Assembly: GCA_946886255.1 (NCBI GenBank)
Contig: CAMPIG010000012.1
Span: 1 to 28,395, forward strand
Reading direction: 5' to 3'
Length of the DNA: 28,395 bases
DNA from: an uncultured Cellvibrio sp.
Lineage (GTDB): Bacteria > Pseudomonadota > Gammaproteobacteria > Pseudomonadales > Cellvibrionaceae
Below are positions 3,802 to 20,730 of the stretch, piece after piece. The notes beneath the pieces are model-generated. The model had not been told where the DNA came from, ran no database searches, and saw only the letters and a program-made list of their open reading frames with translations. A program made the position numbers and the translations under genes. The stretch's first letter is position 1. The number at the start of each line of letters is the position of its first letter.

Positions 3802-4278
3802 ATGCCTCTCAAGAAACGATATTCACTGTCAGAGCAAGTAATCACTCATATTTTTGATGGCGAGGTAAGTGGTAACAGTTTTTCAGGTTTTCATTGTGAA
3901 GCGCGTAAGAATCCAACGAATGGACGTATGATAATTTCACAGATCAGTGGTGACCAAAACGCAAATCGGGAAGCAAACCGCCCTTATAAAGCCCACGTAA
4001 GAATAAGTGTTGGTGGCTCCATGAGAGGGCCTGTGCTCAAATCCATGTTTCCAAAGAACTGGCGTGAAGCCGATATTATTCGATGGATTGAACAAGCCTT
4101 AACGGACCCTAAAGATAAAAATCGCCCCTCCAGAGAATCCTGGACGACAAGCCCGAGATCACTCCGCAGTACCAATGTGCCAGGGCAACAGCTTTCACGA
4201 ATTAAAATTAATAAAGTTTCCTGTACTGTCTTGTACCAGAATGGCGCAATCGCGTCTATTTACCCCAACATCGTTTAA
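3802..4278 (+). CDS. EndoU-type RNase toxin domain protein, stand-alone
   Basis: This is a 158-residue protein from ATG 3802 with an AAGGA about 6 bp upstream. It resembles the bacterial EndoU domain found at the C-termini of contact-dependent and polymorphic toxins: THIFDGE (His16), a second histidine in SGFHCEA (His31), FPKNWREADIIRWIEQAL (83-100), and a final strand pair ending ASIYP (151-155), where the family has its catalytic Ser/Thr-x-Tyr-Pro. EndoU enzymes cut RNA after uridines. There is no signal peptide, no N-terminal delivery region and no small immunity gene next to it, so it is either an orphan toxin tip, a cytoplasmic RNase or an effector. It converges with the C58 remnant. Assigned by motif, without alignment. 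Confidence 0.68.
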   Translation: MPLKKRYSLSEQVITHIFDGEVSGNSFSGFHCEARKNPTNGRMIISQISGDQNANREANRPYKAHVRISVGGSMRGPVLKSMFPKNWREADIIRWIEQALTDPKDKNRPSRESWTTSPRSLRSTNVPGQQLSRIKINKVSCTVLYQNGAIASIYPNIV

Positions 4279-4317
4279 AAAATTGTCCGAAAAGCTTCGC
4301 GATGTTGATCAGTATCC

Positions 4318-4340
4318 ATGGGAGCACCGAGTGCTTCCAT
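4318..4340. terminator. Hairpin between convergent genes, possible bidirectional terminator
   Basis: A 10-bp stem with one G-T pair (ATGGGAGCAC / GTGCTTCCAT) and a 3-nt loop lies between the EndoU stop at 4278 and the C58-remnant stop at 4356. No T-run follows on either strand, so efficiency as an intrinsic terminator is doubtful. Confidence 0.35.
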
Positions 4341-4355
4341 AGGCATACTGCATGG

Positions 4356-4673
4356 TCAGATGCGCTTGGCATATGACTTGATAACGAAGTCACCACCGAG
4401 TTCTTCCATGTAACCCGATGTCCAGTAGAACCCTCCCGGCTCACCGATCCACTGGCGAAAGTTGTCTGCTTTTTCAAAATAGAAAATGCCGTAGTTGGGA
4501 TCAAAAAACATGGCGTCGGCACCGACAAAAGCCGCCACCGCATGACCACCGGCCCGACCATGGAGGCTGATGATCTTATAGGACCAGTAATTAGCGGAAT
4601 GGATACCGACGATTTTTTTGCAAGGTTTATCCACTAGGCTATCAGCGCCTGATTTTCCGAGCCGGCAATCACT
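4356..4673 (-). pseudogene. C-terminal remnant of a C58 (YopT-type) cysteine protease
   Basis: This frame encodes the His-Asp half of a C58 protease: GGHAVAAFVG (catalytic-type His) followed by MFFDPNYGIFYFEKADNFRQWI (catalytic-type Asp in the classic FFDPNxG motif). The cysteine-bearing N-terminal half is absent. It is in the same reading frame as the intact protease directly upstream (4674-5297), separated only by that gene's TAA. The only starts available are internal (for example GTG at 4634) without a convincing ribosome site. The sequence is closer to the canonical C58 motif than the two intact copies are. It is best read as what is left of a third tandem paralog after a deletion; a short expressed regulator cannot be excluded. 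Confidence 0.65.
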
Positions 4674-5297
4674 TTATACGAGGTGGAAGAACCGGTAATT
4701 GGATGTTGCGTCGATGCCGTAACCCACGAAAAGCAGCCATTCGAAGAAGCAGAAAAATTCATAGCGATCCCGAAACAAAAACTCCCCAAAATTCACGTCA
4801 AAAAACCGAACCGGAATCTTGCCTCGTCTTGCTGTACCGAAATACATCGCCACCGCATGCCCACTACCGTCCGGCGGCATAAAACCGAACAGCATATACC
4901 CGGCGTTGACGGCCAGGATGGAATTCACCAATTTCATTCTGGTGACAGGACCGCCACCGTAGCCGCGCTTTTTCACTCCACTCTTATGATGCAGCCAAGC
5001 TTCGAAAGCCGGTGTCTCAAAATGCCTGAAATGTTTCTGCTCGGTTTTAATCAGGCCTACCGCCTTTTGGTTCAAGGGAACGAAGGTTCGCTTGTTATTT
5101 TCCAAATACATGCCGATGAACTCTCTCAATGAGCCACCCGCTTTGTGCTTTGAAATGTAATAACAGGAAGCGGCAAAGCAAACACCCCGCCCCGCCTGTC
5201 TGCCCAATATCGTATGAGATTGGGACACGTCCCACGAGTGAATGCCTTTGTAGGCTTCGGCTTTTTCCAGAACTTCCAGGTCGGTGGGTAAGGGCAT
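4674..5297 (-). CDS. C58 (YopT/AvrPphB-type) cysteine protease-like protein A
   Basis: This 207-residue protein has the ordered catalytic residues of peptidase family C58: Cys40 in GRGVCFAASCYYIS, His147 in GSGHAVAMYFG and Asp167 in VRFFDVNFGEFLF. C58 enzymes include YopT and AvrPphB, which cut host GTPases or kinases, and domains in large bacterial toxins; here the protein is little more than the catalytic core. No signal peptide or membrane helix is seen. It is a paralog of the protein at 5677-6297, sharing the EAYKGIHSW/EAFKGIHSW opening, KHKAGGSLRE/MHKRGSSLRE and the FFD-N-GEFLFRD block. A shared promoter box lies 133 bp upstream of the ATG. The target is unknown. Confidence 0.72.
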   Translation of the reverse strand: MPLPTDLEVLEKAEAYKGIHSWDVSQSHTILGRQAGRGVCFAASCYYISKHKAGGSLREFIGMYLENNKRTFVPLNQKAVGLIKTEQKHFRHFETPAFEAWLHHKSGVKKRGYGGGPVTRMKLVNSILAVNAGYMLFGFMPPDGSGHAVAMYFGTARRGKIPVRFFDVNFGEFLFRDRYEFFCFFEWLLFVGYGIDATSNYRFFHLV

Positions 5298-5676
5298 AGG
5301 AGTTTTTCAACCTCATTGTTGGTGTCTCAAATCCATGAGCGAGCGGAAGAACACACGGTTGCGATGGCTCACCTGGAAGACAGGGGGTAAGACGAGTCTT
5401 TATGCTACGTCAAATATTGGATATGCAGTACCCGCCGAATGGGGGGATATGCCGAGTGTCACCAACGACCATGGCGTGATTTCGAGCGCCATGGCCGTTT
5501 TGCATTCTCTATCAAGGCGTTTGAACGCGCCTCAAAATGAGCTTTGGATTTGTCTATGAAAGTTTGGGAAGTTCAATACACGTTTTGAATGTCATAGTAA
5601 CCCGATAGGTTGGTGTGTAATCGTACCTATCTGGCCCAAGCTTTTAATCTTAATGATGGCCGTTTGTAACTATTGC
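5298..5676. other. Intergenic region between the two C58 genes: promoter plus unexplained sequence
   Basis: About 380 bp without a supported gene. It holds the promoter of the downstream C58 gene (5402-5447), its 5' leader of about 100 nt (5298-5401), and a perfect 8-bp inverted repeat CCATGGCG/CGCCATGG at 5469-5476 and 5487-5494, just upstream of the promoter box on the minus strand. From 5495 to 5676 no coding, RNA or repeat signal could be made out. A plus-strand frame spans 5284-5559 but runs across the promoter and resembles nothing. Confidence 0.5.
5402..5447 (-). promoter_or_regulatory. Shared promoter, site A (C58 protease A)
   Basis: On the minus strand a box reading TCCCCCCATTCGGCGGGT (5430-5447) is followed by exactly 20 bp, then CG and the -10-like hexamer TAGCAT (5402-5407). 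The start codon is 133 bp from the box edge. The layout is identical to sites B-E, with one base changed in the box centre (ATTC for ATTT). Confidence 0.75.
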
Positions 5677-6297
5677 TTAAAGAAAATGCTGAAATTCGTA
5701 GGTGGCAGGCTGGTTATTAGCGTAAACACACCTCAATAACCAATCAAAAAAGAACAAAAATCGCACATGATCACGAAAGAGAAATTCACCGACGTTGATA
5801 TCAAAGAAGCGTACAGGAACTCGATTGTTTCTTCTCGCACCAAAGTACGCAACCACAGCGTGCTTGGATTCTTCAGCCGGAGCAACAATAAGCATCATGT
5901 ATCCTCCTGAAGGCAGAATGCCACGGATCGAAGCTGATAACTTTGCCATGGTAAGCTCACCTTGGCCGTATCCTTTCCTCTTCAGTTTGCTCTCCTCATC
6001 TACCCAACTTTTAAACGTGGTTGTATTTATTGTGTTGCCAAAACGTGTCTGCTGGCTTTTAAGAAACGTTATGGATTCTTCATTCAACTGAGCGAAGAGG
6101 TTCCTGCTACCGTGCTGCAATCCCAAGCCTTCCCTTAACGAACTTCCTCGTTTATGCATAGACATATAGTAACAAGAGGCAGCAAGACAGATCCCTGTGC
6201 CCACATAAGGTGCAAGAAAATGTCCGCCTTGAGATATATTCCAGGAATGTATTCCTTTAAATGCTTCGGCCTTTTTTATGATCAACCAATGTGTCAT
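5677..6297 (-). CDS. C58 (YopT/AvrPphB-type) cysteine protease-like protein B
   Basis: This 206-residue protein is paralogous along its whole length to the neighbour at 4674-5297. The C58 triad is in place: Cys37 in GTGICLAASCYYMS, His146 in ESKHAVVAYFG and Asp166 in VRFFDINVGEFLF. A good ribosome site (AGAGGG, 6 bp before ATG) supports the start at 6297. There is no signal peptide, so it works in the cytoplasm or is delivered by a machine not in this window. It has its own copy of the shared promoter 104 bp upstream, so the tandem copies are separately transcribed. As in family members, the substrate may be a GTPase or kinase, but nothing here identifies it. Confidence 0.72.
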   Translation of the reverse strand: MTHWLIIKKAEAFKGIHSWNISQGGHFLAPYVGTGICLAASCYYMSMHKRGSSLREGLGLQHGSRNLFAQLNEESITFLKSQQTRFGNTINTTTFKSWVDEESKLKRKGYGQGELTMAKLSASIRGILPSGGYMMLIVAPAEESKHAVVAYFGARRNNRVPVRFFDINVGEFLFRDHVRFLFFFDWLLRCVYANNQPATYEFQHFL

Positions 6298-6372
6298 GGA
6301 AAGCCCTCTTTTTATTACAGCAGCGACAGATAATTTGTTGAGTTCATTTTGAAATACGCCGACGAAGACTGA

Positions 6373-6418
6373 ATTTTACGCTCGATCTCCGCGGGTCAAT
6401 ACCCGCCAAATGGGGGGA
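6373..6418 (-). promoter_or_regulatory. Shared promoter, site B (C58 protease B)
   Basis: The box TCCCCCCATTTGGCGGGT (6401-6418) is followed by 20 bp, CG and the good -10 hexamer TAAAAT (6373-6378). A TTGACC inside the 20-bp gap could serve as a -35. The box starts only 16 bp after the stop of the propeller lipoprotein gene. Confidence 0.8.
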
Positions 6419-6433
6419 GCCACTTTTATTTAT

Positions 6434-9400
6434 CTAGCGTGCCACCATCACTCGCTCACCGCTGATTAAGTCCACCGCAAACAATTGATCAACACCGCTA
6501 TCTATCACGAAGACAATATTGTTTTCACCCAGCGCTATGCCTGAAGGCGATCCGAACAATGGACCGCTGCCGGTATTAGGCCCTGATACTTCCACCCGGT
6601 CACCGGTGGTTAAATCGACTGCGATGATCGCATTTGACTTGCTGTCTGCAGCTAAGAGGCGATTGTTAGCAGTATCAGAGGCAATGTAAGCAACACTGCC
6701 AAAAGGCGTTCCTCCACCCACACCGAGACCGGAGATAATATTTCTATTACCCGTAGTCAGATCTATGGCACAGATAAAACCGCCATCAGAGAAGTTACTG
6801 TTGGCTGCCAATACACGATTGTTGTCCTTATCCAAAATAATCGATTGCACACTCCTGAGCGTGGGCCCGGTTCCCTTTGTGCTGGCAGATAATAATGTTC
6901 TAGCGCCCGTCACCGTATCTACAACAAATAACTTGGCATCGGCTTGAACTGCTGTCCCGACATAAGCAATATTATTTTCGGTATCTAATGCAACGGAGAA
7001 GGGTGAGTCCAGCGTAGGGCCAGATCCGGCGCCCGCGCCCGACAATAGCGAGCGGTTACGCGTGGAATCGCCCACCGTCAGGTCCACGGATATCAAACCT
7101 TCCGGTACATCAGGCACCAGTATGCGGTTGTTATCCCGGTCAAAGGCAACATTAAAAGGCAAATCAAAATCCAGAATGCCATCGGTTTGCGCTCCGCTGG
7201 ATATGATGCCTATCTGCGCGCTATTTAAATCCACGGAAAATAAAGCGCCCCGGGTATGATCTACGGTAAATACGCGGTTATTGTCACTATCAAGCGCCAA
7301 GCCGTTGGGTGTCTCAAATAGTGTTGCGTTTGTTTGATTGGCGATGGTGAAGCGAAGCCCATTCCTCACATTAATGATGAGATCTCGAGCGGCATCCAGT
7401 ACCAGGTTATTACCGGTGAGGCTGTTGAACGCTACGGAGATCGCTTCCGTAAAAGGATCTTTTGTGCCCGTGGAACCACCGCCATCGCGCGGGCCGGACA
7501 ACACCGTGCGAAAGCCGGTTGTTAAGTCGACACCAAACAAAGCACCCAAGCCATCGGTGTCGGCGTCTAAAACAATGGCGCGATTGCCGGCGACATCCAT
7601 GCTGATGGATACCGGATTTGCAAAATCATTTTGGCCGCCTCCTACAAGGCGATTGCCGTTGTCGCCTGAAAATACCGTTCTGGTTCCGGTGGCAAAATCG
7701 ATCGCTAATACACTGGGCGTATTCCGGGGAACATCGCCGACAAAAAAGGACTGGCCAAAAGCACTCACCAAAGCACGACCATTCAGGCTGTCTACTGCGA
7801 TACCGGTGACGTTCTCCATGCGTGCCCCTCCAGTGTCCAGCCGACTGCTTTCACCGGTGGTTAGATCTATCGCCATCACCGCTGCTGCTATGCTGATGCA
7901 ATCCAATGTCAGCGCGCGGTTGTTGGCTTTGTCTATGGCAACAGCGAGCGGAATCTTGTCTTTAAGTCCTGACAAAACACAGCTTGAGCTGGTGGAAAAA
8001 ATACTTCTATCACCTGTTGTCAGATCGACGGCAATAACGGCCTTTTTACCGATGTCAGTTACCAGCGCACGATTGTTATCACGATCAAGCGCAACTGATG
8101 TCGGTTTACTAAAGGTTGGTCCTTCGCCCGTGTCAGCACCGGACAACATAATGCGACCGCCTGTGTCCAAATCGACAGAAAGCAGTGCTTTCAAGGTTTC
8201 ATCCACCACCAGTGCTCGATTATTTTCCGCATCAAATTCAATCGCTCGCGGCCGTTCAAAGTTTTCTACGGAGGTACCTGAGGTCATCGTGATTCTGGCG
8301 GCATTCGTGTCGATATTGCCGTTGATATCTTGCGTGGTTACATCCAGTAAGGTTTTGCCCAGTGCGAGTGGCACCTGCGCTTGCCAGGTAGCAAAGTCAT
8401 CATCGCTGGTGGCAGGCACACCCTCAATCGTAACAGCGGTAATCTCATTATTTTCTGCGTCACTTGCTGTGCCGCGAACCAGAAGGCTATTGCTGGTTGT
8501 GGTGCCGACTGGCAGTGGAAAGATGACCTTTGCCGTCGGGGCCAAAGTATCCTTGATGGTGGTAACAATAAAATCTGCACTGGTATTACCGACAAGGAGG
8601 GTAGCGGTTTTGGTAGTACCGAAGGTGTCTGCTGCTTCCAGGCGTAACCTGACACTCTCGCCAGCCTGAATAACACCGTCTTCCGGTGTAAAGCCTGCGC
8701 CGTCGATACTGTATTCACCACCGGTAATGCTGATCATGACTGGCTCATCCAGCCCGCTTATCGTCACGCTGTTCGACTCGACGAGCGCAGCGAGTGCGAC
8801 ATCGGTTTGTGCTTCAAACGCAAACGCGTCCGGTGTGATATCCACCTGGGTCGTCACGTCAAAATGACTGCTGATGCCACCAATGGTTAATGTGGCGGTG
8901 GTGGCGGTTAATCCGGTCTCTGCAGCCAAGACACGAACGCGCACCGTTTGTCCGTTCGTGATGCTTCCTTCGGCATCGGTGAAGAGGGAATCATCAATGG
9001 CGTATTCGCCACCGACAATTGAGATAGGTGTGGGCGCATTAATTCCAGCGATGGTGATCGCTTCCGACATAACAAAAGTACCGGGAGTTACATCGAGCTG
9101 AACGGCAAACGCAAAAGTGTCTGGTGTTGTGTCTTCGCTGGCTTCACTGGAGCTGCTGTCAGAGCTGCTACTAGAACTATTTTCTACGCTGCTACTGCTA
9201 CTTGAGCTACTTTCTTCGCTGCCAGTACTGCTTTCGGCATTACTACTTGAACTACTCTCTTCGCTGCTGCTTGCGCTACTTTCGGCGTTACTGCTTGAAC
9301 TATTTTCTTCGCTATTACTGGCACTACTTTCTGTACTGCTATGTGAACTGCTTTCTGCGCTGCTACTTGAACTTGTGTCCGGGATAGCGATGACGCTGCT

Positions 9401-9694
9401 CGCGGTGCTACTGCTGGCACTTTCAACGCTGCTGTGTGCAGTACTACTTGCACTAGTCTCGACGCTACTGTTTGCACTGCTCTCTGTAACACTGCTTGAA
9501 CTATTTTCTGAGGCGTTATTTGCGCTGCTGTCTGCACTACTCACAGCACTACTATTTGTGCTGCTGGCATTACTCGCCACGCTACTGTTTGCACTGCCGC
9601 CATCGTCACTGCCACCGCTACCGCCACCACAAGCAGTGAGAACAAACACCAGCGACAGCATGCACAAACGGATTAACGCATTAATGTGTTTCAT
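6434..9694 (-). CDS. Serine-linker lipoprotein with Ig-like repeats and 12-repeat beta-propeller
   Basis: This 1086-residue protein opens with a lipoprotein signal (MKHINALIRLCMLSLVFVLTAC, lipidated Cys22), then Gly/Asp-rich residues and a serine-rich linker to about residue 187. Two Ig-like repeats follow (about 190-286 and 287-382), each with an ISI-GGEYxID core, then a further Ig-like segment (APTAKVIFPLP onwards). From about 478 to the end are 12 repeats of 45-60 residues of the type ALDRDNNRALVTD...IAVDLTTGDR, resembling NHL/SMP-30 propeller blades; 12 would fit two six-bladed propellers. It is probably held on the outer membrane and exposed on long stalks. Leader and promoter match those of the DUF285 lipoprotein at 14121-17174. 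The binding partner or enzymatic role is unknown. Confidence 0.85.
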   Translation of the reverse strand: MKHINALIRLCMLSLVFVLTACGGGSGGSDDGGSANSSVASNASSTNSSAVSSADSSANNASENSSSSVTESSANSSVETSASSTAHSSVESASSSTASSVIAIPDTSSSSSAESSSHSSTESSASNSEENSSSSNAESSASSSEESSSSSNAESSTGSEESSSSSSSSVENSSSSSSDSSSSEASEDTTPDTFAFAVQLDVTPGTFVMSEAITIAGINAPTPISIVGGEYAIDDSLFTDAEGSITNGQTVRVRVLAAETGLTATTATLTIGGISSHFDVTTQVDITPDAFAFEAQTDVALAALVESNSVTISGLDEPVMISITGGEYSIDGAGFTPEDGVIQAGESVRLRLEAADTFGTTKTATLLVGNTSADFIVTTIKDTLAPTAKVIFPLPVGTTTSNSLLVRGTASDAENNEITAVTIEGVPATSDDDFATWQAQVPLALGKTLLDVTTQDINGNIDTNAARITMTSGTSVENFERPRAIEFDAENNRALVVDETLKALLSVDLDTGGRIMLSGADTGEGPTFSKPTSVALDRDNNRALVTDIGKKAVIAVDLTTGDRSIFSTSSSCVLSGLKDKIPLAVAIDKANNRALTLDCISIAAAVMAIDLTTGESSRLDTGGARMENVTGIAVDSLNGRALVSAFGQSFFVGDVPRNTPSVLAIDFATGTRTVFSGDNGNRLVGGGQNDFANPVSISMDVAGNRAIVLDADTDGLGALFGVDLTTGFRTVLSGPRDGGGSTGTKDPFTEAISVAFNSLTGNNLVLDAARDLIINVRNGLRFTIANQTNATLFETPNGLALDSDNNRVFTVDHTRGALFSVDLNSAQIGIISSGAQTDGILDFDLPFNVAFDRDNNRILVPDVPEGLISVDLTVGDSTRNRSLLSGAGAGSGPTLDSPFSVALDTENNIAYVGTAVQADAKLFVVDTVTGARTLLSASTKGTGPTLRSVQSIILDKDNNRVLAANSNFSDGGFICAIDLTTGNRNIISGLGVGGGTPFGSVAYIASDTANNRLLAADSKSNAIIAVDLTTGDRVEVSGPNTGSGPLFGSPSGIALGENNIVFVIDSGVDQLFAVDLISGERVMVAR

Positions 9695-9737
9695 TTATTT
9701 AGCCCGATGTTTTTTGTGTTGAGAAGAGCTTGTCTAA

Positions 9738-9759
9738 TGAGCATAATTTTTTATGCTCA
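9738..9759 (-). promoter_or_regulatory. Hairpin in the 5' leader of the propeller lipoprotein mRNA
   Basis: A perfect 9-bp stem (TGAGCATAA / TTATGCTCA) with a 4-nt loop lies 43 nt before the start codon and about 30 nt after the -10 hexamer. No T-run follows, so it is more likely a leader stabiliser or protein-binding hairpin than a terminator. Confidence 0.4.
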
Positions 9760-9788
9760 ACAGCAAATACTTCTACTTCAGGCTGATC

Positions 9789-9834
9789 ATCATACGTTTG
9801 ATGCGCAAGTGGTAAAACCCGCCAAATGGGGGGT
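9789..9834 (-). promoter_or_regulatory. Shared promoter, site C (propeller lipoprotein)
   Basis: The box (9817-9834) reads ACCCCCCATTTGGCGGGT on the minus strand; after 20 bp come CG and TATGAT (9789-9794). Similarity to site E extends beyond the box, through TTTT-CC-CTTGC and CGTATGATGA-CAG, indicating a common origin of the two promoters. Confidence 0.82.
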
Positions 9835-9887
9835 GCTTGCTAAGTAGGAGGGAATGTATATCAAGAGCAACTCTGCAACGATAATGT

Positions 9888-10748
9888 TTAAACGCACAGA
9901 CTTTGTTCAAAGTTGTAGGTTGGTGCAACGAAGGGACGAAATCCTTCGATCATGGTTAACACATAGAGTGCGCGGTTCGGGCGACCATTGCCATCAGGAA
10001 AGCCGTGGGTACGCATGTAAGCACTGAGAAAGTAGCAGGCAAAGCTATCCCAGTCTTCGTCTGTCAATAACTTTGTGCGAGCACCGATGGTGCGGACATT
10101 ATCAGCAACCATTTTCTGTAGTGCTTTTGCTGCACCCGAACTTGGCCAGGGTTGTTCATGATTCAGCGGTCGGCGTTCCACGATGGAACCTTTTGGGACC
10201 AAGCGATCATGCAGAAATTTTAATGTGTCCAACTCAAAGACTGAACGATTGGTGCGGCGGCATTCGATGATGACATCGGCAATATCATTCGCAGACATCT
10301 TGGATGAGTTGGAAGCCATGACAATCCACTTTGCGCCTTTGAGGGAGTCGATGTCCGCATTACTCGCGCCGTATCTTGCCATCGGTAAAATGTTTTGCGT
10401 TTGACGTAAATTCTTTCCCAGGTCGTTCGCCAGTGCCTTGCGGAAAAGGCGCTGAACGAGCTCCTTTGTACTGAGCGCTTTTTCCCGTTGCCGAATGAGA
10501 GTCTGGCGAAAATTGGAGGTATAGGTACTTTCCCAATCCCCATCATCAAGGATAGCTCCCTTAAACTTGTTGCTGGTGTACCGCCAGTGCATATCCCTGA
10601 TGGATTCTTCTGCTGCTTCCGGCCCAACAGCCGCCACCAAGGCCGCAAATTCATGCTTTGTTTTTATCAGGTAAGAAAACTGAGGGAGCGTGAGCATCGT
10701 TTTACGGTTGGTAATCTCAATTTCTTTACGTTTACTTTTGAATACCAT
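9888..10748 (-). CDS. Fic-domain protein (putative AMPylase or related transferase)
   Basis: This 286-residue protein carries the complete Fic active-site motif HGFPDGNGRPNR at residues 248-259 (HxFx[D/E]GNGRxxR), including the catalytic His and phosphate-binding Gly-Asn-Gly-Arg. Fic enzymes transfer AMP or other nucleotide-derived groups onto target proteins. No inhibitory [S/T]xxxE[G/N] helix motif was found in the chain, and no small antitoxin gene is adjacent. The N-terminal 200 residues are helical-looking without a recognised extra domain. The chain ends only 27 residues after the motif. A strong ribosome site (GAGGAG) precedes ATG 10748; Met18 is an alternative start. It has the shared promoter 95 bp upstream. 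Confidence 0.82.
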   Translation of the reverse strand: MVFKSKRKEIEITNRKTMLTLPQFSYLIKTKHEFAALVAAVGPEAAEESIRDMHWRYTSNKFKGAILDDGDWESTYTSNFRQTLIRQREKALSTKELVQRLFRKALANDLGKNLRQTQNILPMARYGASNADIDSLKGAKWIVMASNSSKMSANDIADVIIECRRTNRSVFELDTLKFLHDRLVPKGSIVERRPLNHEQPWPSSGAAKALQKMVADNVRTIGARTKLLTDEDWDSFACYFLSAYMRTHGFPDGNGRPNRALYVLTMIEGFRPFVAPTYNFEQSLCV

Positions 10749-10814
10749 TTCACATCTCCTCGTAAGCTAATGTCCGGACATACACGACCCAGCATAGATC
10801 CAATTGAAAGATTC

Positions 10815-10860
10815 ATGATACGCCCCATCCTTGGCAGCCAATACCCCCCAAATGGGGGGA
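10815..10860 (-). promoter_or_regulatory. Shared promoter, site D (Fic gene)
   Basis: The box (10843-10860) is TCCCCCCATTTGGGGGGT: here the two arms CCCCCC and GGGGGG form a perfect inverted repeat around ATTT. After 20 bp follow CG and TATCAT (10815-10820). This copy best shows the dyad nature of the box. Confidence 0.8.
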
Positions 10861-10886
10861 CGAGAAGAAAGTACTTGCTGAGATAG

Positions 10887-10917
10887 AAAACGCCCTGGCT
10901 TAAAAAGCGCAAGGCGT
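10887..10917 (-). terminator. Probable terminator of the two-component operon
   Basis: On the minus strand, directly after the response-regulator stop, ACGCCTTG pairs with CAGGGCGT (one G-T pair) across a loop that can itself pair, and TTTT follows. It separates the regulator operon from promoter D about 30 bp further on. Confidence 0.5.
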
Positions 10918-10927
10918 GTTGTGCGAA

Positions 10928-11557
10928 TTACATTAAATGATCGATCAGTAGCCCATGCTTTTGTGCGATAAGCACGGCTTGAGTGCGATTGGCGGCGTTG
11001 AGGCGTTCAATGACTTTGGAGACATATTCTTTGGCCGTGAGCGGGGATACACCGAGTCGATTGGCGATTTCTTTGTTCGATAATCCCTCCGCTAGATAGC
11101 GCAGCGTAGCCAGCTGTTGTTGTGATAAATCAATAAAGTCCGTTCCTTCGCGCTCGGACTCAATCACGATATTTCCATCAAGAACTTCAGCTATCGCCTT
11201 TTTCATTAAGTGCTTGGGTGTGGACTTGGCAATAAACCCGTTTGCGCCCGCATCAATCATCTGCCGGGTGCTCGTATCAAAATCCAGCGTGGACACGACA
11301 ATGATCGTCAATGTCGGAAAGCGGCTGCGTATTTCTTTCAAGCCATCCAGATCCTGGGTTCCTGGCATTCGGATATCGAGCATAACCAACACGATATCCG
11401 GTTCACGCAGAAGTATTGTCAGCGCATCGGGGAAATTTCCTGCCAGATATATGTGCGTTTCGGGGTTTATTTCCTCGAAAAGCAATTTCAAGCCGTCGCG
11501 ATAGAGCTCGTGATCTTCCGCGATCAGTACTTTTTCGCCTGCAAGTAATTCTGCCAT
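10928..11557 (-). CDS. NarL/LuxR-family response regulator
   Basis: This 209-residue protein has a receiver domain (1-120) and a C-terminal LuxR-type helix-turn-helix (about 145-205). Receiver residues are all present: acidic pair Glu14-Asp15, phospho-acceptor Asp61 in LDIRMPG, Thr90 and Lys111. The DNA-binding part shows LATLRYLAEGLSNKEIANRL and SPLTAKEYVSKVIERL, standard for the family. It follows its histidine kinase with a 57-bp gap, so they are one operon. The pair lies in the middle of five genes sharing a dyad promoter box, while its own upstream region lacks the box. I infer, without proof, that this protein activates those promoters. Confidence 0.9.
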   Translation of the reverse strand: MAELLAGEKVLIAEDHELYRDGLKLLFEEINPETHIYLAGNFPDALTILLREPDIVLVMLDIRMPGTQDLDGLKEIRSRFPTLTIIVVSTLDFDTSTRQMIDAGANGFIAKSTPKHLMKKAIAEVLDGNIVIESEREGTDFIDLSQQQLATLRYLAEGLSNKEIANRLGVSPLTAKEYVSKVIERLNAANRTQAVLIAQKHGLLIDHLM

Positions 11558-11614
11558 ACATTTATTCCAACAAATTTTTAAGCGTGGTGATATGCCATGC
11601 TGTAACGCAAATAG

Positions 11615-13990
11615 TTAAGTTTGCTTTTTTAACAAAAAGCTTTCCAGGTAACGAAGCAAAGAACGCAATTGCGCGGGGCGATAATGCGCCGAAAGAATAT
11701 GGACATTAAGCGCCGTTAATTTTCCGGACAATTCCCGATCAACATGGTCGCAAAACATGGCAACCACGACATTCCCGTACTGTTCTTCCAAATGACTCAC
11801 ACACTCAGTCATGGATTCAGCGGTCAACTGACCGGCACATGCCATGATGATCAGCGTTATCGGAACACTGCCACCCTCGCTGGATTCATCGGTCGTTAAA
11901 TAACCCCAACTTTTTAAACTACCGGACACTTTGCTCAGCATGGGTGTATCAGGCAGGTCGACAATAATGCGCAAACCGGTCTTGGCCTTACTCTCGGTTT
12001 CCTGGTGACTGGCTTCTGTATACGGCAACTTGATCTGAAATAATGTTCCCGTTTTCGACCGAGCATTCGGCTCTGTTGATCGTACAAGGATTTCACCACC
12101 CAATAGATCCACCAGGTGTCTGACAATCGCCAAACCAATCCCCATGCCTTTATGACTGGCTGACACTTTTTCTGAGCGCTCGTAGATATCAAAGATCACG
12201 CGCTGATCATCCGCGCTGATGCCACAACCCGTATCCCAGACCTGAATAAGCAGGTGCCCCTTCCGGCGACGAAATCCTACCAGCACGCCGCCTGTTTCCG
12301 TGTACTTGATGGCATTAGTTAACAAATTCCGGAGAATTCTTTCCAGCAGCTCCGGATCGGTGTCGAGCTTTTTAATATTGCTTCTAAAGCGGATTTTTAA
12401 CCCTTTGGTACAAGCATAAGGTTCGAACTCGAGCTGCATGCGCGCAATGAGTAGGCGCAGGTCAACAGATTCACTGTTTAACTTGACCGCACCCGCCTCA
12501 AGGCGACTCAGATCCATTAATTTTTTAAACGAGTCATTCATCGCCGTGTGCAAGCTATAGACTTTGGTCAGAACATTTTGACCTGCCGGCGAACTCACGT
12601 AATCATTCAGGTGCGCCAGAAACATACCCATGCTGTGTAATGGCTGACGCAAGTCATGGCTTACCGATGCGAGGAAACGCGATTTAGCTTCATTCTTCAT
12701 CTCTGCCTGATGTTTTTCTTTTTTCAATGTGTCGATACGTATCACCATCGCGACAAAATGAATCAGCATATGGATGATCTGATAAAATGGCTCGCGCAAA
12801 ATTTTATACGACAGCGTACTTTCGCCAGGCTTTGGCTCAATGGTAACCGTTCCGACAAGCTCCACCAGCGAGAAAAGTACAGGAATCCAACCCAACATAA
12901 AGATCAGGTAATAGCGGCCTTTTTCAATGACCCGCACGATACCGGCAGAAAAGATAAGCATCATCATGATGATGCCGTTTAACAGATACATCGCTACGTT
13001 CCACTGTCGCGGAAAAAAATGGCTTAATAGCAATGAAAATAGAAAGATAACGATAGCTGCATTAAATATTTTTTTGATCGGACGGTCTTCCGGCTCCGGC
13101 AATAAAAACGAGCGCGCGAATAACATAAAACTCAACAGTGCTATCGTGGCCCACAACCAAATCCAGGGAGGTAGATCTTCATCACCATGCAGAAGGAAAA
13201 GCCCCAAATGACTTCTGATGGCAAAGAACGAGAACAAGAACAGTGATGAGATACCGAACCAGAAAAATGTAATATCCTTGAGGATGACACTGCATAACAA
13301 CGCCATTAATACCAAGCCCAGTACCACGCCGGTGCTGAGGCTGTACAGGTCGCTCATGGCAGCTGACCATGCCAGGTAGTGTTTCTTTGTCATCAAGGCC
13401 ACATAAGGTGCTGCAACCAGACCGCGTGAGCTTAACTCCACGGCCATAAAATAATCTTTATCCTGCTCCAGTGTCAGTGAAAACGCCCTGCCCAGTACAT
13501 TGATGTTTTCTCCATCAATACCCGCGATCCAATCTGACTGATACTGTTGTGCCATGGATTCATCGAATAATATTACTGTTATCTTTTGCAGGAAGAAGTT
13601 ACTGAAATGCAGCTTCCATTGGTACTGATCCGTTTCATTACGAAATGCAATAAACATACAGTAGCGGTGATTTTTCTGAAAATCTGGCAGTGTTGTGGTT
13701 TGAAGGCGGTGTGGGTCTATCCGCTCAAGCATTGCCATGCGTTGAAGCTTTACGACGGCGTCAGGACTTAAACCCTGTGGGCAGGCATAGAGCCCCGATG
13801 CCTGGGGAGCGGAGTTAACATCATGGCGTGCTTTGGGGTCGCTCAGGATCAATACATTCCCTGTGTCTGGCACAGCACCAACCGTCGGCATGGTGAAACC
13901 AAGCAGAAGAATAAGCAGCAAAACAAGAACAACCCATGTCACCGCGAGGTGGACGGGTAATTCTGAAAAGGTTGATTGAGAGATGTGCAT
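11615..13990 (-). CDS. Sensor histidine kinase with 7TMR-DISM-like sensor and degenerate receiver
   Basis: This 791-residue kinase begins with an N-terminal membrane segment (about 14-36), a periplasmic region to about 205 resembling the DISMED2 extracellular domain, and about seven membrane helices (215-420). The kinase core follows: H-box SVSHDLRQP with His445, N-box RNLLTNAIKYT (Asn559), G1 DTGCGI and G2 GMGIGLAIV (615-623). The last 120 residues (from about 671) have receiver-like alternating strands and helices, but no clear phospho-acceptor Asp, so this is probably a dead receiver. 7TMR-DISM sensors often respond to carbohydrates or other small ligands. The response regulator next to it lacks nothing, suggesting direct phosphotransfer. 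Confidence 0.88.
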   Translation of the reverse strand: MHISQSTFSELPVHLAVTWVVLVLLLILLLGFTMPTVGAVPDTGNVLILSDPKARHDVNSAPQASGLYACPQGLSPDAVVKLQRMAMLERIDPHRLQTTTLPDFQKNHRYCMFIAFRNETDQYQWKLHFSNFFLQKITVILFDESMAQQYQSDWIAGIDGENINVLGRAFSLTLEQDKDYFMAVELSSRGLVAAPYVALMTKKHYLAWSAAMSDLYSLSTGVVLGLVLMALLCSVILKDITFFWFGISSLFLFSFFAIRSHLGLFLLHGDEDLPPWIWLWATIALLSFMLFARSFLLPEPEDRPIKKIFNAAIVIFLFSLLLSHFFPRQWNVAMYLLNGIIMMMLIFSAGIVRVIEKGRYYLIFMLGWIPVLFSLVELVGTVTIEPKPGESTLSYKILREPFYQIIHMLIHFVAMVIRIDTLKKEKHQAEMKNEAKSRFLASVSHDLRQPLHSMGMFLAHLNDYVSSPAGQNVLTKVYSLHTAMNDSFKKLMDLSRLEAGAVKLNSESVDLRLLIARMQLEFEPYACTKGLKIRFRSNIKKLDTDPELLERILRNLLTNAIKYTETGGVLVGFRRRKGHLLIQVWDTGCGISADDQRVIFDIYERSEKVSASHKGMGIGLAIVRHLVDLLGGEILVRSTEPNARSKTGTLFQIKLPYTEASHQETESKAKTGLRIIVDLPDTPMLSKVSGSLKSWGYLTTDESSEGGSVPITLIIMACAGQLTAESMTECVSHLEEQYGNVVVAMFCDHVDRELSGKLTALNVHILSAHYRPAQLRSLLRYLESFLLKKQT

Positions 13991-14080
13991 ATTTCACCAC
14001 GAGGCATAGCGATCAAGTGATCCTGGAGTATGCCTGAAATCTCTATTAAACAACCAGCGGACAGTTGCCTCGTGTAACAA

Positions 14081-14110
14081 CTGACACAGCCTCCCATGAG
14101 GCTGTGTCAG
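14081..14110 (-). terminator. Hairpin after the DUF285 lipoprotein gene
   Basis: A perfect 13-bp stem (CTGACACAGCCTC / GAGGCTGTGTCAG) with loop CCAT lies 10 bp after the stop codon at 14121. Only a weak TTGTT follows, so it may end transcription or protect the mRNA 3' end. It sits between this gene and the histidine kinase. Confidence 0.6.
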
Positions 14111-14120
14111 CTACAAGGGA

Positions 14121-17100
14121 TTACTCTGCTAAGCCACCATCCGTGATAGTCCAGCCAGCGTTATTGATCAACGTATCGCGCGCGGTTTGCGCAGCGGCGG
14201 AGAAGGTTGTTGTTCCCGCATTAAGGGTCACATCAGGTTGAACGCTGGGCAACTGGCTCCAACCGATTAACAGAGCATCGTAATTTGCAGTAGTAAGCAC
14301 ACTATCGACAAACAAGTTACTCATATTATTTACGTTAGCGATATTCCAGTTGCCAAGGTTTTGATCAAACGCTTTTGTACCTTGGAACATGGTCGACATA
14401 TTGGTAACTTTAGAAACATTCCAGCTGCTAATGTCTGCATTAAACACGTCGGCAAGCATGAACATCTCGTTCATTCTCGTGACATTCGCGACATCCCAAT
14501 TATCAATAGGTTGATTAAACGCTCTTGCCTCTCTGAACATATTGCCCATATCAGTAACCCTGGATGTGTTCCACTGGCTAATGTCCTGATTAAACGGGGT
14601 ACGGAAAAACATCTCGCGCATACTGGTCACATTGGCGACATTCCAATTACCAATAGGTTGATTAAACACGCCGGTCTCTCTGAACATATTGCCCATATCG
14701 GTGACGTTGGAAACGTTCCAATTGCTAATATCAGCATTGAACACGTTGGCTCCAAAAAACATATCGACCATATTCCTGACATTGGCGACATTCCAATTAC
14801 CAATAGACTGATTAAACGCATCGGCCTCTCTAAACATAGCGAACATGGTCGTGACATTACCGACGTTCCAATTGCCAATGGGTTGGTTAAATACTCTTGC
14901 CTCCTGAAACATAGCATTCATGTTGGTGACTTTAGCTACATCCCAGTTACTAATATCGTGATTGAATTTTGTGCCTCGGAACATGTTGTCCATATTGGTT
15001 ACATTGGAAACATTCCAGCTACTGATATCCAGATTAAAATTGTCGGCACCCTCAAACATACGGCTCATAGTGGTCACTTTTGAAACATCCCAGTTACTGA
15101 TATTGCCACTTAAATTATCAGCGTTTCTAAACATGCTGGCCATGCCGGTGACCTGTGACAAATCAGGACTTTCTGTATCATTAATGGTTAGGTTGCGGCA
15201 ATCAAAAAAGGCTTGGTTCATTGCGCGCCAGGTTCGATTGCCCCACTGTTCAACCGATAATAATTTTTGTGAATCTGTTTGCGTTGCATCGAATGTGGCT
15301 TTGAAAAAAGATTGTGGAAATGTTCCCGTAATCGATACCGTATATTCACCGGGTGATGCATAGGTATGGGTAATTTCACCAGTCACATTTTCATCAAATG
15401 ATCCATCACCCCACTCAACTCGATAGTTGTAAGCCATACCAGATGCGGTGTGAATGGTGATTTGATTGTCGTCACTCATGCCGGGATTATCTGTCTTCCA
15501 GCGCGTGACAAACGGCGTTTGCTCTTCGACTGTCAGCGTGATAAGCGCAGAATCGCTGCCCAACGCGTTGGTTGCAGTAACCGTAAATTCGATTGCTGCT
15601 TGCGCTGTTATGGGCGTGCCGACGATGGCGCATGTGTTGTCAACCACCTCGACTTCAAGCCCATCAGGTAAGGCATCGGCAACACAGCTATCGGGTTTTC
15701 CGCCGCTATTGACGATATTGATGCTGGCCAAGTCATTGGTTTGCACCTTCAGCGCCTGGTCTTGCAGATCAGGAACGACCAACAAGCCACCATCAGACAC
15801 TGACCAGACAGTGGTCAGGATAAGGCGCGCTGCTTCGGCCGCTGCGCTGTATTGGGTTGGAAAGAAACTGATATCAAGTTCTTGTTGTAGCGGCAATAAC
15901 GACCAGCCGAGCAAGATGGCATCATAATTTTGCAGCGTTAACCCCGACCTTTCCGCGAAGTCACTCATGGTTGTCGCGTTCGAGACATTCCAGCTGCCAA
16001 GGTTTTGATCAAAGGCTTCTGCGTCTTCAAACATGGCAGAAAAATTAGTGGCATTGGCGACGTCCCAGCTGCTGATATCCTGATTAAATGCAATTGCACC
16101 TGAGAACATGTCTGCCATGTTCGTTACGTTAGCAACATCCCATTGACTGATATCACTGTTAAACGTCACCGTATCACTGAACATGAACTCCATAGTGGTT
16201 ACGTTGGATACATTCCAGCTGCTTAAATCACCATTGAAATTTTCCAAAGAAAAAAAAGTTCCAGTCATGTCTGTTACATTTGAAACATCCCAGTGACTGA
16301 TATCGCTGGTAAAGTTAACGGCGCTGGCAAAGGTACCTAACATACTGGTCACGCGAGATAAGTCAGGTGCTTGATTGTCGTTAATCACCAGATTAGCTGC
16401 GCCTGCAAATGCAAATTCCATCGACAGCCAGACCCGGTTACCCCAGGCATCTACCGATAAAAGCTTGTTGGCATCGGTAATCTCTTCAAACAAATTGAAA
16501 TAGGTTTGAGGAAAGCGCCCCGTAATCGAAATTTGATACTCACCGGGCGTGGCATAGGTGTGGGTAATATCACCCGTTACATTTTCGTCTGCGTTACCAT
16601 CACCCCAGTCAATGGTGTAGTCGTAACTGAAATTCGGCGATGTGGTAATCGTGATTTGATTATCGTCACTGGCGCCTTCGTTATCGGTTTTCCAGGTGGT
16701 AATAAAAGGCGAAGCCGCTACGATTTCCATCGGGACCAGAGCTGAGTCACTGCCTTCTGCGTTAACCGCCGTGACCGTAAAATTGGTTAAAACCAACAAA
16801 GCCGTAGCCTCACCGCTGATCTCGCAGGTTGACGCATTCGCTGACACTACAATCGTGAAGGTGTCCGGTAAATCAGATGAACACTCGGTCAGCGCCTGAC
16901 CACCGATATTGTTCAGGCTTACGCTGATTAATTCATCCAGCACAAAGCTTTGTATGTTTGCATCGACCAAATCCGGTGGTGTTGGCACGGGGGGAACACT
17001 GCTACTGGAACTGCTATCGGATGAACTCGTGACGCTGCTAACGGCGCTGCTTGCACTACTGGCAACGCTGCTGTTCCCGCCACCGCCATTACCGCCGCCT

Positions 17101-17174
17101 CCCCCACCACAAGCGGTGAGGATCAAGACCAGCGATACCATGCACACACGGCCCCAAGAAATAACCTGCTTCAT
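14121..17174 (-). CDS. BspA/DUF285-repeat surface lipoprotein with PKD domains
   Basis: This 1017-residue protein has a lipobox leader (MKQVISWGRVCMVSLVLILTAC, Cys22), a Gly run, and a short serine-rich linker to about residue 60. Two similar modules follow. Module 1 (about 68-465) has a putative-Ig segment, a PKD-like domain (WGDG, THTYATPGEYQISITG, 189-219) and five DUF285 repeats of about 25 residues (DISxWDVSNVTxMxxMF). Module 2 (466-1017) repeats the order with about 11 DUF285 units. Both modules close with a similar NYDALLIGWS...AAxxARxxL...WxxxDGGL tail. Such repeats occur on adhesins such as BspA. It is probably anchored in the outer membrane; the ligand is unknown. It is preceded by the shared promoter. 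Confidence 0.88.
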   Translation of the reverse strand: MKQVISWGRVCMVSLVLILTACGGGGGGNGGGGNSSVASSASSAVSSVTSSSDSSSSSSVPPVPTPPDLVDANIQSFVLDELISVSLNNIGGQALTECSSDLPDTFTIVVSANASTCEISGEATALLVLTNFTVTAVNAEGSDSALVPMEIVAASPFITTWKTDNEGASDDNQITITTSPNFSYDYTIDWGDGNADENVTGDITHTYATPGEYQISITGRFPQTYFNLFEEITDANKLLSVDAWGNRVWLSMEFAFAGAANLVINDNQAPDLSRVTSMLGTFASAVNFTSDISHWDVSNVTDMTGTFFSLENFNGDLSSWNVSNVTTMEFMFSDTVTFNSDISQWDVANVTNMADMFSGAIAFNQDISSWDVANATNFSAMFEDAEAFDQNLGSWNVSNATTMSDFAERSGLTLQNYDAILLGWSLLPLQQELDISFFPTQYSAAAEAARLILTTVWSVSDGGLLVVPDLQDQALKVQTNDLASINIVNSGGKPDSCVADALPDGLEVEVVDNTCAIVGTPITAQAAIEFTVTATNALGSDSALITLTVEEQTPFVTRWKTDNPGMSDDNQITIHTASGMAYNYRVEWGDGSFDENVTGEITHTYASPGEYTVSITGTFPQSFFKATFDATQTDSQKLLSVEQWGNRTWRAMNQAFFDCRNLTINDTESPDLSQVTGMASMFRNADNLSGNISNWDVSKVTTMSRMFEGADNFNLDISSWNVSNVTNMDNMFRGTKFNHDISNWDVAKVTNMNAMFQEARVFNQPIGNWNVGNVTTMFAMFREADAFNQSIGNWNVANVRNMVDMFFGANVFNADISNWNVSNVTDMGNMFRETGVFNQPIGNWNVANVTSMREMFFRTPFNQDISQWNTSRVTDMGNMFREARAFNQPIDNWDVANVTRMNEMFMLADVFNADISSWNVSKVTNMSTMFQGTKAFDQNLGNWNIANVNNMSNLFVDSVLTTANYDALLIGWSQLPSVQPDVTLNAGTTTFSAAAQTARDTLINNAGWTITDGGLAE
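14304..15161 (-). repeat. DUF285 repeat block 2 (about 11 units)
   Basis: Units of about 75 bp inside the lipoprotein gene encode the repeat (D/P)IxxWxVxxVTxMxxMFxxAxxF. Alternate units differ in a regular way, DIS-W-V-S units against PIG-W-V-A units, suggesting amplification of a two-repeat pair. A shorter, more diverged block of five lies at 15945-16364. Confidence 0.75.
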
Positions 17175-17236
17175 TTGTTTAGCTCACTCTATTGGAATGT
17201 ATTAAGGGGAGTCTGGCCGTCGAATGCAAAGCCCTC

Positions 17237-17255
17237 GCCCAGCAAAAAGCCGGGC
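17237..17255 (-). promoter_or_regulatory. Hairpin in the 5' leader of the DUF285 lipoprotein mRNA
   Basis: A 7-bp stem with one G-T pair (GCCCGGC / GCTGGGC) and a TTTTT loop lies 62 nt before the start codon. It is at a position similar to the leader hairpin of the propeller lipoprotein, though the sequences differ. Confidence 0.3.
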
Positions 17256-17285
17256 TCTAACGACACCGTCTACTCGAAACTGGTC

Positions 17286-17331
17286 ATCATACGTTCAAGA
17301 TGCAAGCGGCAAAACCCGCCAAATGGGGGGA
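17286..17331 (-). promoter_or_regulatory. Shared promoter, site E (DUF285 lipoprotein)
   Basis: The box TCCCCCCATTTGGCGGGT (17314-17331) is followed by 20 bp, CG and TATGAT (17286-17291). The box edge is 140 bp from the start codon. The promoter resembles site C well beyond the box. Confidence 0.82.
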
Positions 17332-20408: not shown

Positions 20409-20730
20409 TGCGTGGGGGTTGTGTTGGGGCGGGGTTGTGCTTATGGTGGGTTTTATCGACTGATAATAATTATGTGGTGAATCTAATCGCCTTAGAAGTA
20501 CTTGGCTAGAAGTTTGTTATCCGGGTTACCTGTTTCGAAAACGCATGAATACGTCCTTGTAGCTCCTTCAAGTCGTCCATGACTTGAAGGTTTCGAAACA
20601 GGTAACCCGGATAACAAACTCACTTCGAACAGAGTTTGGCAGTATTTAATTTTTCGACAATAAAAATAGTCAACGCGCAAAAAAGATAAAAACTAAATCT
20701 TGTGCGCAATATCGAGGGAGAAACCTGATC
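20409..20730. other. Intergenic region after LysR gene: palindromic element and promoter leader
   Basis: No gene is supported here. 20409-20510 shows nothing recognisable, 20511-20620 is the second long palindrome, and 20621-20730 is an AT-rich leader ending in a GAGGGAGAA ribosome site for the next gene. A minus-strand frame (20492-20680) translates the palindrome and is spurious. Confidence 0.6.
20511..20620. repeat. Long palindromic repeat element, copy 2 (conserved core, private arms)
   Basis: Perfect 30-bp complementary arms lie at 20511-20540 and 20591-20620. The core, read on the minus strand, has the same order as copy 1: a 10-bp stem CCTTCAAGTC/GACTTGAAGG with loop ATGGAC, then AGCTACAAGGACGTATTCAT and GCGTT. 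Against copy 1 the stem changes C to T on one side and G to A on the other, so pairing is kept. The arms share with copy 1 only an outer GTTTGT and an inner GAAA. Confidence 0.88.

Follow-up and report, generated by a model that had tools for sequence, protein, structure and literature searches.

A dyad box with fixed promoter spacing in a Cellvibrio genomic island and the two-component system proposed to act on it

The DNA considered here, a 28,395-nucleotide stretch from an uncultured Cellvibrio sp. (contig CAMPIG010000012.1; hereafter the window), carries five genes on the minus strand that are each preceded by a near-identical box, the 7-2-7 dyad CCCNNCA-NN-TGNNGGG, with a -10-like hexamer at a fixed distance behind it. 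Judging from the sequence, we consider it highly probable that these boxes are the operators of a two-component system whose genes lie between them, and that a phosphorylated regulator dimer would activate the five promoters in the class II manner. An earlier note on the same DNA had described the promoters and named no regulator; a likely one (10928-11557) and its kinase (11615-13990) lie inside the very coordinates that the note covered.

The candidate box-binder (10928..11557, minus strand) is a NarL/LuxR-type response regulator (Pfam Response_reg, 60.6 bits; GerE, 54.4 bits), in which D61, K111 and E14-D15 are invariant across 11 aligned sequences and whose solved relatives include NarL. 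The candidate sensor (11615..13990, minus strand) is a histidine kinase with matches to 7TMR-DISM_7TM (54.5 bits), HisKA (36.7 bits) and HATPase_c (86 bits), all over cut-off, and with its phospho-His, H445, within SHDLRQP. Both genes sit between the Fic-like and the DUF285 gene, two of the boxed genes, and have no box of their own. A PADLOC search for a defence system gave only one weak match in the helix-turn-helix (HTH) part of the regulator and one in the ATPase part of the kinase, and this identity was rejected.

In the mechanism proposed, the kinase would sense an outside signal and phosphorylate the regulator, a dimer of which would occupy the dyad with one subunit per heptamer. The bound dimer, centred at about -43.5, would then recruit sigma-70 polymerase to a promoter with a poor -35 element and a -10 hexamer, TANNNT, fixed 22 bp downstream, as in class II activation. 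The genes so activated would encode a pair of protease-like proteins of the C58 (YopT) type, one Fic-like protein and two surface lipoproteins, one with an NHL propeller and the other of the DUF285/PARCEL-PKD type. Read-through from the DUF285 gene into the kinase and regulator genes might add positive feedback, which is possible because the DUF285 gene precedes both on one strand.

The five promoters of the window

A search of the window with ACCCGCCAAATGGGGGGA at up to three mismatches returns exactly five matches (boxes A to E, with 1, 0, 1, 1 and 0 mismatches), at the minus-strand positions given by the earlier note and, as it had said, ahead of no other genes in the window; shuffled versions of the window give a mean of 0.03 matches, and five were reached in none of 100 shuffles. 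Box A (TCCCCCCATTCGGCGGGT, 5430..5447; CCCCCCCATTTGGTGGGT in the nearest genome, G001) lies 132 bp before the C58 gene at 4674-5297, with its hexamer, TAGCAT, 22 bp after it at 5402..5407. Found by the same search and a spacing check, box B (TCCCCCCATTTGGCGGGT, 6401..6418) is followed by TAAAAT at 6373..6378, box C (ACCCCCCATTTGGCGGGT, 9817..9834) by TATGAT at 9789..9794 and box E (17314..17331), which has the same letters as box B, TCCCCCCATTTGGCGGGT, by TATGAT at 17286..17291. Box D (TCCCCCCATTTGGGGGGT, 10843..10860) is a perfect dyad, and the spacing check places its hexamer, TATCAT, at 10815..10820.

Exactly 20 bp separate the box from a CG, directly followed by the TANNAT hexamer, in all five copies (22 bp from box to hexamer), just as described earlier, and the dyad that had been reported, perfect in copy D, is here refined to two heptamers 2 bp apart. 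The distances from box to start codon are 132, 103, 122, 94 and 139 bases for A to E, so that the 95-140 bp claimed becomes 94-139. Only one of the five sites (9816-9789, at box C) passes a loose sigma-70 (-35/-10) scan; thus the -35 elements are mostly poor, in agreement with the note. With a box that abuts the -35 region, a fixed distance to the -10 and a poor -35, the arrangement has the pattern of a class II sigma-70 promoter, and the centre of the dyad would fall at about -43.5 if transcription starts some 6-8 bp after the hexamer. The sequences surrounding boxes C and E resemble each other as well, at 81% over 62 bp when E of the window is compared with C of G001; the five promoters are therefore not fully independent. 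The observation that five genes share one promoter is confirmed, and its interpretation as one activator-dependent promoter type is supported.

Distribution of the box and the pair in related genomes

The nearest genome, G001 (5.26 Mb in one contig), has the island in common with the window at 92.7% over 12.8 kb. Immediately outside it the two differ, and genes farther away agree again, so that the cluster has the behaviour of a mobile or variable block. At up to two mismatches G001 contains exactly five boxes, each of them mismatch-free and within the island. Five are likewise obtained with the reversed control at this threshold (none at up to one mismatch), and thus the box count in G001 says little by itself. 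Genome-wide, a search for randomly placed boxes found the full promoter pattern, box plus CG-TANNAT, in G001 five times only, each in the island, while the 142 other family genomes searched lack it. As a required element CG-TANNAT was rejected as too narrow, since only G001 of 143 genomes matches it. The box alone at up to one mismatch matches in 32 of 144 family genomes and the reversed control in 18, so that single loose matches are mostly due to chance.

Relatives of the kinase (E <= 1e-60) were found in nine and relatives of the regulator (E <= 1e-30) in ten of 143 family genomes, the ten being G001, G136, G137 and seven more remote genomes, six of those with a kinase match. G136 and G137 belong to another genus (kinase 48%, regulator 66-67% identity with the window); in both, the box (exact in G136, one mismatch in G137) precedes a DUF285 lipoprotein homologous to that at 14121-17174 and is followed 22 bp later by TATTAT, and the gene order box-DUF285-kinase-regulator is common to them and the window. 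The remoter pair loci carry a variant dyad, CCCGACA-TT-TGTCGGG or CCCTACA-TT-TGTAGGG. With a unified pattern, CCCNNCATTTGNNGGGT-N22-TANNNT, 11 matches are obtained in the 143 genomes, always at kinase/regulator loci of seven of the ten, and none in the reversed control (5.7e-10). The variant CCCNACATYTGTNGGGT occurs 12 times in seven of the 143, nine times at kinase/regulator loci, twice elsewhere in G087 with the spacing kept and once in G093, and a box-only scan at up to two mismatches finds dyads in all ten regulator-bearing genomes. The background consisted of 50 loci (810 kb) of remote regulator relatives, taken from a regulator scan of contigs, whose best segments are at most 41% identical; at up to two mismatches these hold 13 box matches, none with TANNNT at N22.

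A less trained test was a regulator profile search of 390 order-level genomes, in which 16 match and 12 are new. With one mismatch allowed, a dyad is found at seven of the 12 new loci, and four of these seven have TANNNT at N22; the 50 background loci have four dyads at this threshold and no such hexamer. The 7TMR-DISM cut-off is passed by seven neighbouring kinases, exactly those at the seven dyad loci. The kinase of G484 falls just under it (28.4 vs 29 bits), with no linked dyad and a site elsewhere in the genome, and the four remaining loci show no dyad at up to one mismatch; their neighbouring kinases carry PAS domains, match dCache below threshold or give no sensor match at all. Among the 22 genomes reached via regulator relatives, 18 have the dyad (17 at the kinase/regulator locus), and the four without it have remote regulators beside other kinases.

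An order-wide scan for the pattern gave 17 sites in 12 of the 390 genomes, against one in the reversed control, and 14 of the 17 are in nine pair-bearing genomes; the sites of G444 and one of two in G417 had already been met in the 12-locus test. New unlinked sites stand before NHL-type lipoproteins in G276, G513 and G417 and, in G484, before a DUF285/PKD lipoprotein (35% over 466 aa). The odds of the overlap between sites and pair are 4.4e-8 with the four family genomes left out, 5.8e-7 with one pair genome per genus and 2.1e-5 with G444 also omitted. In G207 and G444 the order is kinase-box-crystallin-regulator, which, together with the order box-DUF285-kinase-regulator of the window, G136 and G137, suggests feedback.

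The comparative set comprises 29 boxes, with the window counted once. It leaves out the five duplicates of G001, other-strand palindrome rows, the G093 site, sites first met in the order-wide scan and five matches of low stringency at regulator loci that were not accepted as boxes (L111 8264, L114 10938, L115 648 and 4178, L116 18718), although L114 10938 does have TANNNT at N22. TANNNT stands at an offset of exactly 22 in 25 of the 29 boxes and at every other offset in at most three, and the spacers of site pairs are identical at a median of only 6 of 22 letters. The CG precedes the hexamer in nine of 29 sites (four of 24 outside the window). The fixed feature is thus box-N22-TANNNT, and CG is not general; the rigid, activator-dependent promoter with a dyad near -43 gains from this comparison, and the essential CG of the earlier note does not survive it. 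Further, a recognition helix with T[AV]K accompanies the half-site CCCNCCA in 6/6 cases and one with T[AV]R the half-site CCCNACA in 12/12, which would link Lys/Arg in the helix to C/A in the half-site, in a suggestive rather than statistical way.

Evidence against the proposal and alternative explanations

Several observations weigh against the boxes being operators of the pair. The unified pattern was partly learnt from loci that are counted in the 143-genome scan, where the variant dyad was first seen, and the family scan is therefore not independent. The Lys regulators form a single clade on the tree, with window and G001 as near-duplicates, so that the pairing of Lys/Arg with C/A amounts to one evolutionary change. 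Exact boxes in G023 and G028 are followed by T-runs in a terminator-like manner, and G114 has an exact box with neither the kinase/regulator pair nor a -10; the dyad alone is thus not diagnostic. G093 likewise has a perfect dyad with no -10 and no close regulator. In G081 kinase and regulator are on different contigs, with the boxes on that of the kinase, while the boxes of G050 carry two mismatches and no kinase is seen on its short contig. Dyads lie upstream of the kinase in G276, G513 and G451 with no TANNNT at N22, and G087, the fourth misfit of the 29, has TTATTG there. Three genomes with order-wide sites have no close intact regulator: in G340 the box has within 7 kb a kinase relative (37%) and a regulator of which only the ends are left, the G312 site has a terminator-like T-run behind a hairpin, and that of G462 stands as an exception.

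Activation by the local pair has also to be set against other uses of the same sites. Repression, in which the bound regulator would keep polymerase out, through a dyad that adjoins the -35 region, until released by a signal, is in our judgement unlikely. It has precedent in NarL at frdA (PMC4549865), and most tested ErdR targets rose on erdR deletion (PMC9927353); however, the box ends at about -35, the -10 is free, the spacing is exact and the -35 is mostly poor, as activation expects, and CrbR is described as activating from the same position (PMC5715377). Somewhat less probable again is binding by another regulator, global or unlinked, with the local two-component system as a mere passenger of the island. 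The boxes far from the pair in G276, G513, G484, G417 and G087 would fit such a regulator, but close relatives of the window regulator are rare (10 of 143 genomes) and the sites track them across families, the recognition helix tracks the type of box, and remoter regulators beside other kinases have no boxes.

Rigid spacing, together with the CG that precedes the -10 of every window copy, could be taken for the two-part promoter of an alternative sigma factor of the extracytoplasmic function (ECF) type, a reading that we regard as very improbable. The arms of the dyad change together across species (CCCGACA/TGTCGGG, CCCTACA/TGTAGGG), 22 bp lie between the end of the box and the -10, and 20 of 29 sites lack the CG; on these grounds an ECF promoter was rejected. 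Recent duplication of the five promoters inside the island, with the box as an inherited likeness that has no function, is barely credible: two promoters are indeed 81% alike over 62 bp and the two C58 genes are paralogous, yet across the 29 sites the spacers have diverged (median 6/22 identical) while box and distance stayed fixed, and other families show the same arrangement.

Genes behind the boxes and relation to known systems

The two C58 (YopT-type) cysteine peptidase-like proteins, of 207 aa (4674..5297, minus strand) and 206 aa (5677..6297, minus strand), pass the cut-off of PF03543 (26.8 and 25.4 bits against 23) and are paralogues with 43-44% identity. Cys and Asp are invariant in 6/6 aligned sequences and His in 5/6, with Asn instead in the G087 copy. 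The NCBIfam model TIGR01586 (YopT-type; cut-off 52.95) is missed, with 22 bits for one copy and no match for the other, and a homologue search with the first protein gave three matches. A truncated frame on the minus strand (4256-4634) with the C58-typical DPNYG-F motif adjoins the boxed C58 gene and is likely to be the remnant of a third copy.

The gene at 6434..9694 (minus strand) encodes a predicted lipoprotein of 1086 aa with the lipobox LTAC (by eye), a Ser-rich linker and NHL/beta-propeller repeats; boxed homologues occur in G079 and G081 (46%), and others, at about 30%, in G276 and G513. The Fic-like protein (9888..10748, minus strand), with the motif HGFPDGNGR at 248, appears to be a distant relative of the VopS family, its matches to NCBIfam NF010653 (2.4e-11, 43.4 bits; cut-off 364) and Pfam Fic (18.2 bits; cut-off 24) both being below cut-off. 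The fifth product (14121..17174, minus strand) is a predicted lipoprotein of 1017 aa with a Ser-rich linker, PKD domains and DUF285/PARCEL repeats (DUF285, 576 bits; over the curated cut-off for TIGR02167 and under it for NF045896), and its gene is possibly the first of a run with kinase and regulator.

Other genes were seen at box loci elsewhere. At locus L114 a boxed 209-aa protein (11059-11685) has no Pfam match; its Cys and His motifs, judged by eye, are papain-like. L117 (12929-14572) and L118 (6630-8411) have boxed alpha/beta-hydrolase proteins, which share 59% identity and carry additional sequence at the N-terminus. In L119 (G050) two almost identical boxes, at 1352 and 2427, stand ahead of the regulator gene itself and of an AMP-binding/carrier/aminotransferase gene. 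The box precedes a beta/gamma-crystallin protein between kinase and regulator in two other families (L163 10426-11493 and L165 8797-9873). In L188 of G340 (8371-8651 and 8727-10886) the receiver middle is gone, and the HTH part, the kinase and the box are kept. In the window, a stand-alone EndoU_bacteria nuclease-domain gene (3802-4278, plus strand) lies just outside the island, and two similar intergenic, palindromic repeat-like elements with a common TCAAGTCGTCC-type core (by eye) are found at about 1255-1365 and 20515-20620.

Delivery of these outputs by type III secretion was rejected for ten relatives, as the export gate (hrcV model) was over cut-off in none of them; weaker matches in seven were read as flagellar because the E. 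coli, B. subtilis, C. vibrioides and T. maritima controls also score below cut-off. The type VI protein VipB was found in nine of these ten, a count for which no background rate was taken. A wider and rather doubtful suggestion is a horizontally mobile response to contact or in predation, so far undescribed and marked by the box, in which the sensor-regulator pair and its operator would travel with changing effectors, delivered by a non-type-III route, possibly type VI, against neighbouring cells or protists. What travels would then be surface lipoproteins together with effectors of intracellular type: C58 proteases, Fic and further proteins of the papain-like or hydrolase kind.

Mechanisms of this kind are known, while the system and its regulon appear to be undescribed in the literature searched: among the matches listed, with few subscription journals covered, no paper was recognised by title or abstract as dealing with this pair or box. 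A little-known two-component family would gain its operator, its promoter architecture and its regulon purely from sequence, and the pattern is specific enough to locate unlinked regulon members. Orphan families (C58 outside pathogens, NHL and DUF285/PARCEL lipoproteins, VopS-like Fic) would be tied to one switch, which makes their function testable, and the pairing of recognition helix and half-site offers a compact case for decoding NarL-type specificity.

Among known proteins, the C58 peptidases YopT, AvrPphB and PfhB2 are related to the window copies, which pass the Pfam cut-off, keep Cys, His and Asp and, in alignment, match solved chains including PfhB2 (6u8t) and AVRPPH3 (1ukf). Unlike these, the window copies are short single-domain proteins with a dyad promoter, and their activity is predicted. 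PARCEL/DUF285 surface lipoproteins, whose family names cite Mycoplasma and Listeria, share their repeats with the window protein, which differs in its Ser-rich linker and PKD domains and in preceding kinase and regulator genes.

The closest parallel in mechanism is NarL of Escherichia coli, also a response regulator with a GerE-type HTH, whose targets are inverted heptamers 2 bp apart. The NarL heptamer has the consensus TACYYMT, against CCCNNCA here; the kinase here is of the 7TMR-DISM type, the targets are lipoproteins and protease-like proteins rather than nitrate respiration, and the regulator scores 68.5 bits, far below the NCBIfam NarL cut-off of 250. According to PMC4549865 and PMC7419079, NarL has 7-2-7 sites at napF, yeaR and ogt, and a single such site just upstream of the -35 suffices at yeaR; the place of the dyad, about -43.5, would be that of the yeaR site and near those at napF and ogt. 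An engineered NarL site, TACCCCTAAAGGGGTA, has a C4/G4 core in common with box D.

The best NCBIfam match of the regulator is ErdR (1.2e-26), of the Pseudomonas system CrbS/CrbR (MxtR/ErdR), although it misses the curated ErdR model NF041830 (93.8 bits; cut-off 390). According to PMC5715377, CrbR activation needs the ACTU motif, whose imperfect inverted repeat spans -52 to -36 at acs. This repeat and the window dyad share their place in the promoter. CrbS is described as a hybrid kinase with a symporter domain, and the targets of CrbR are acetate genes, both unlike the system of the window.

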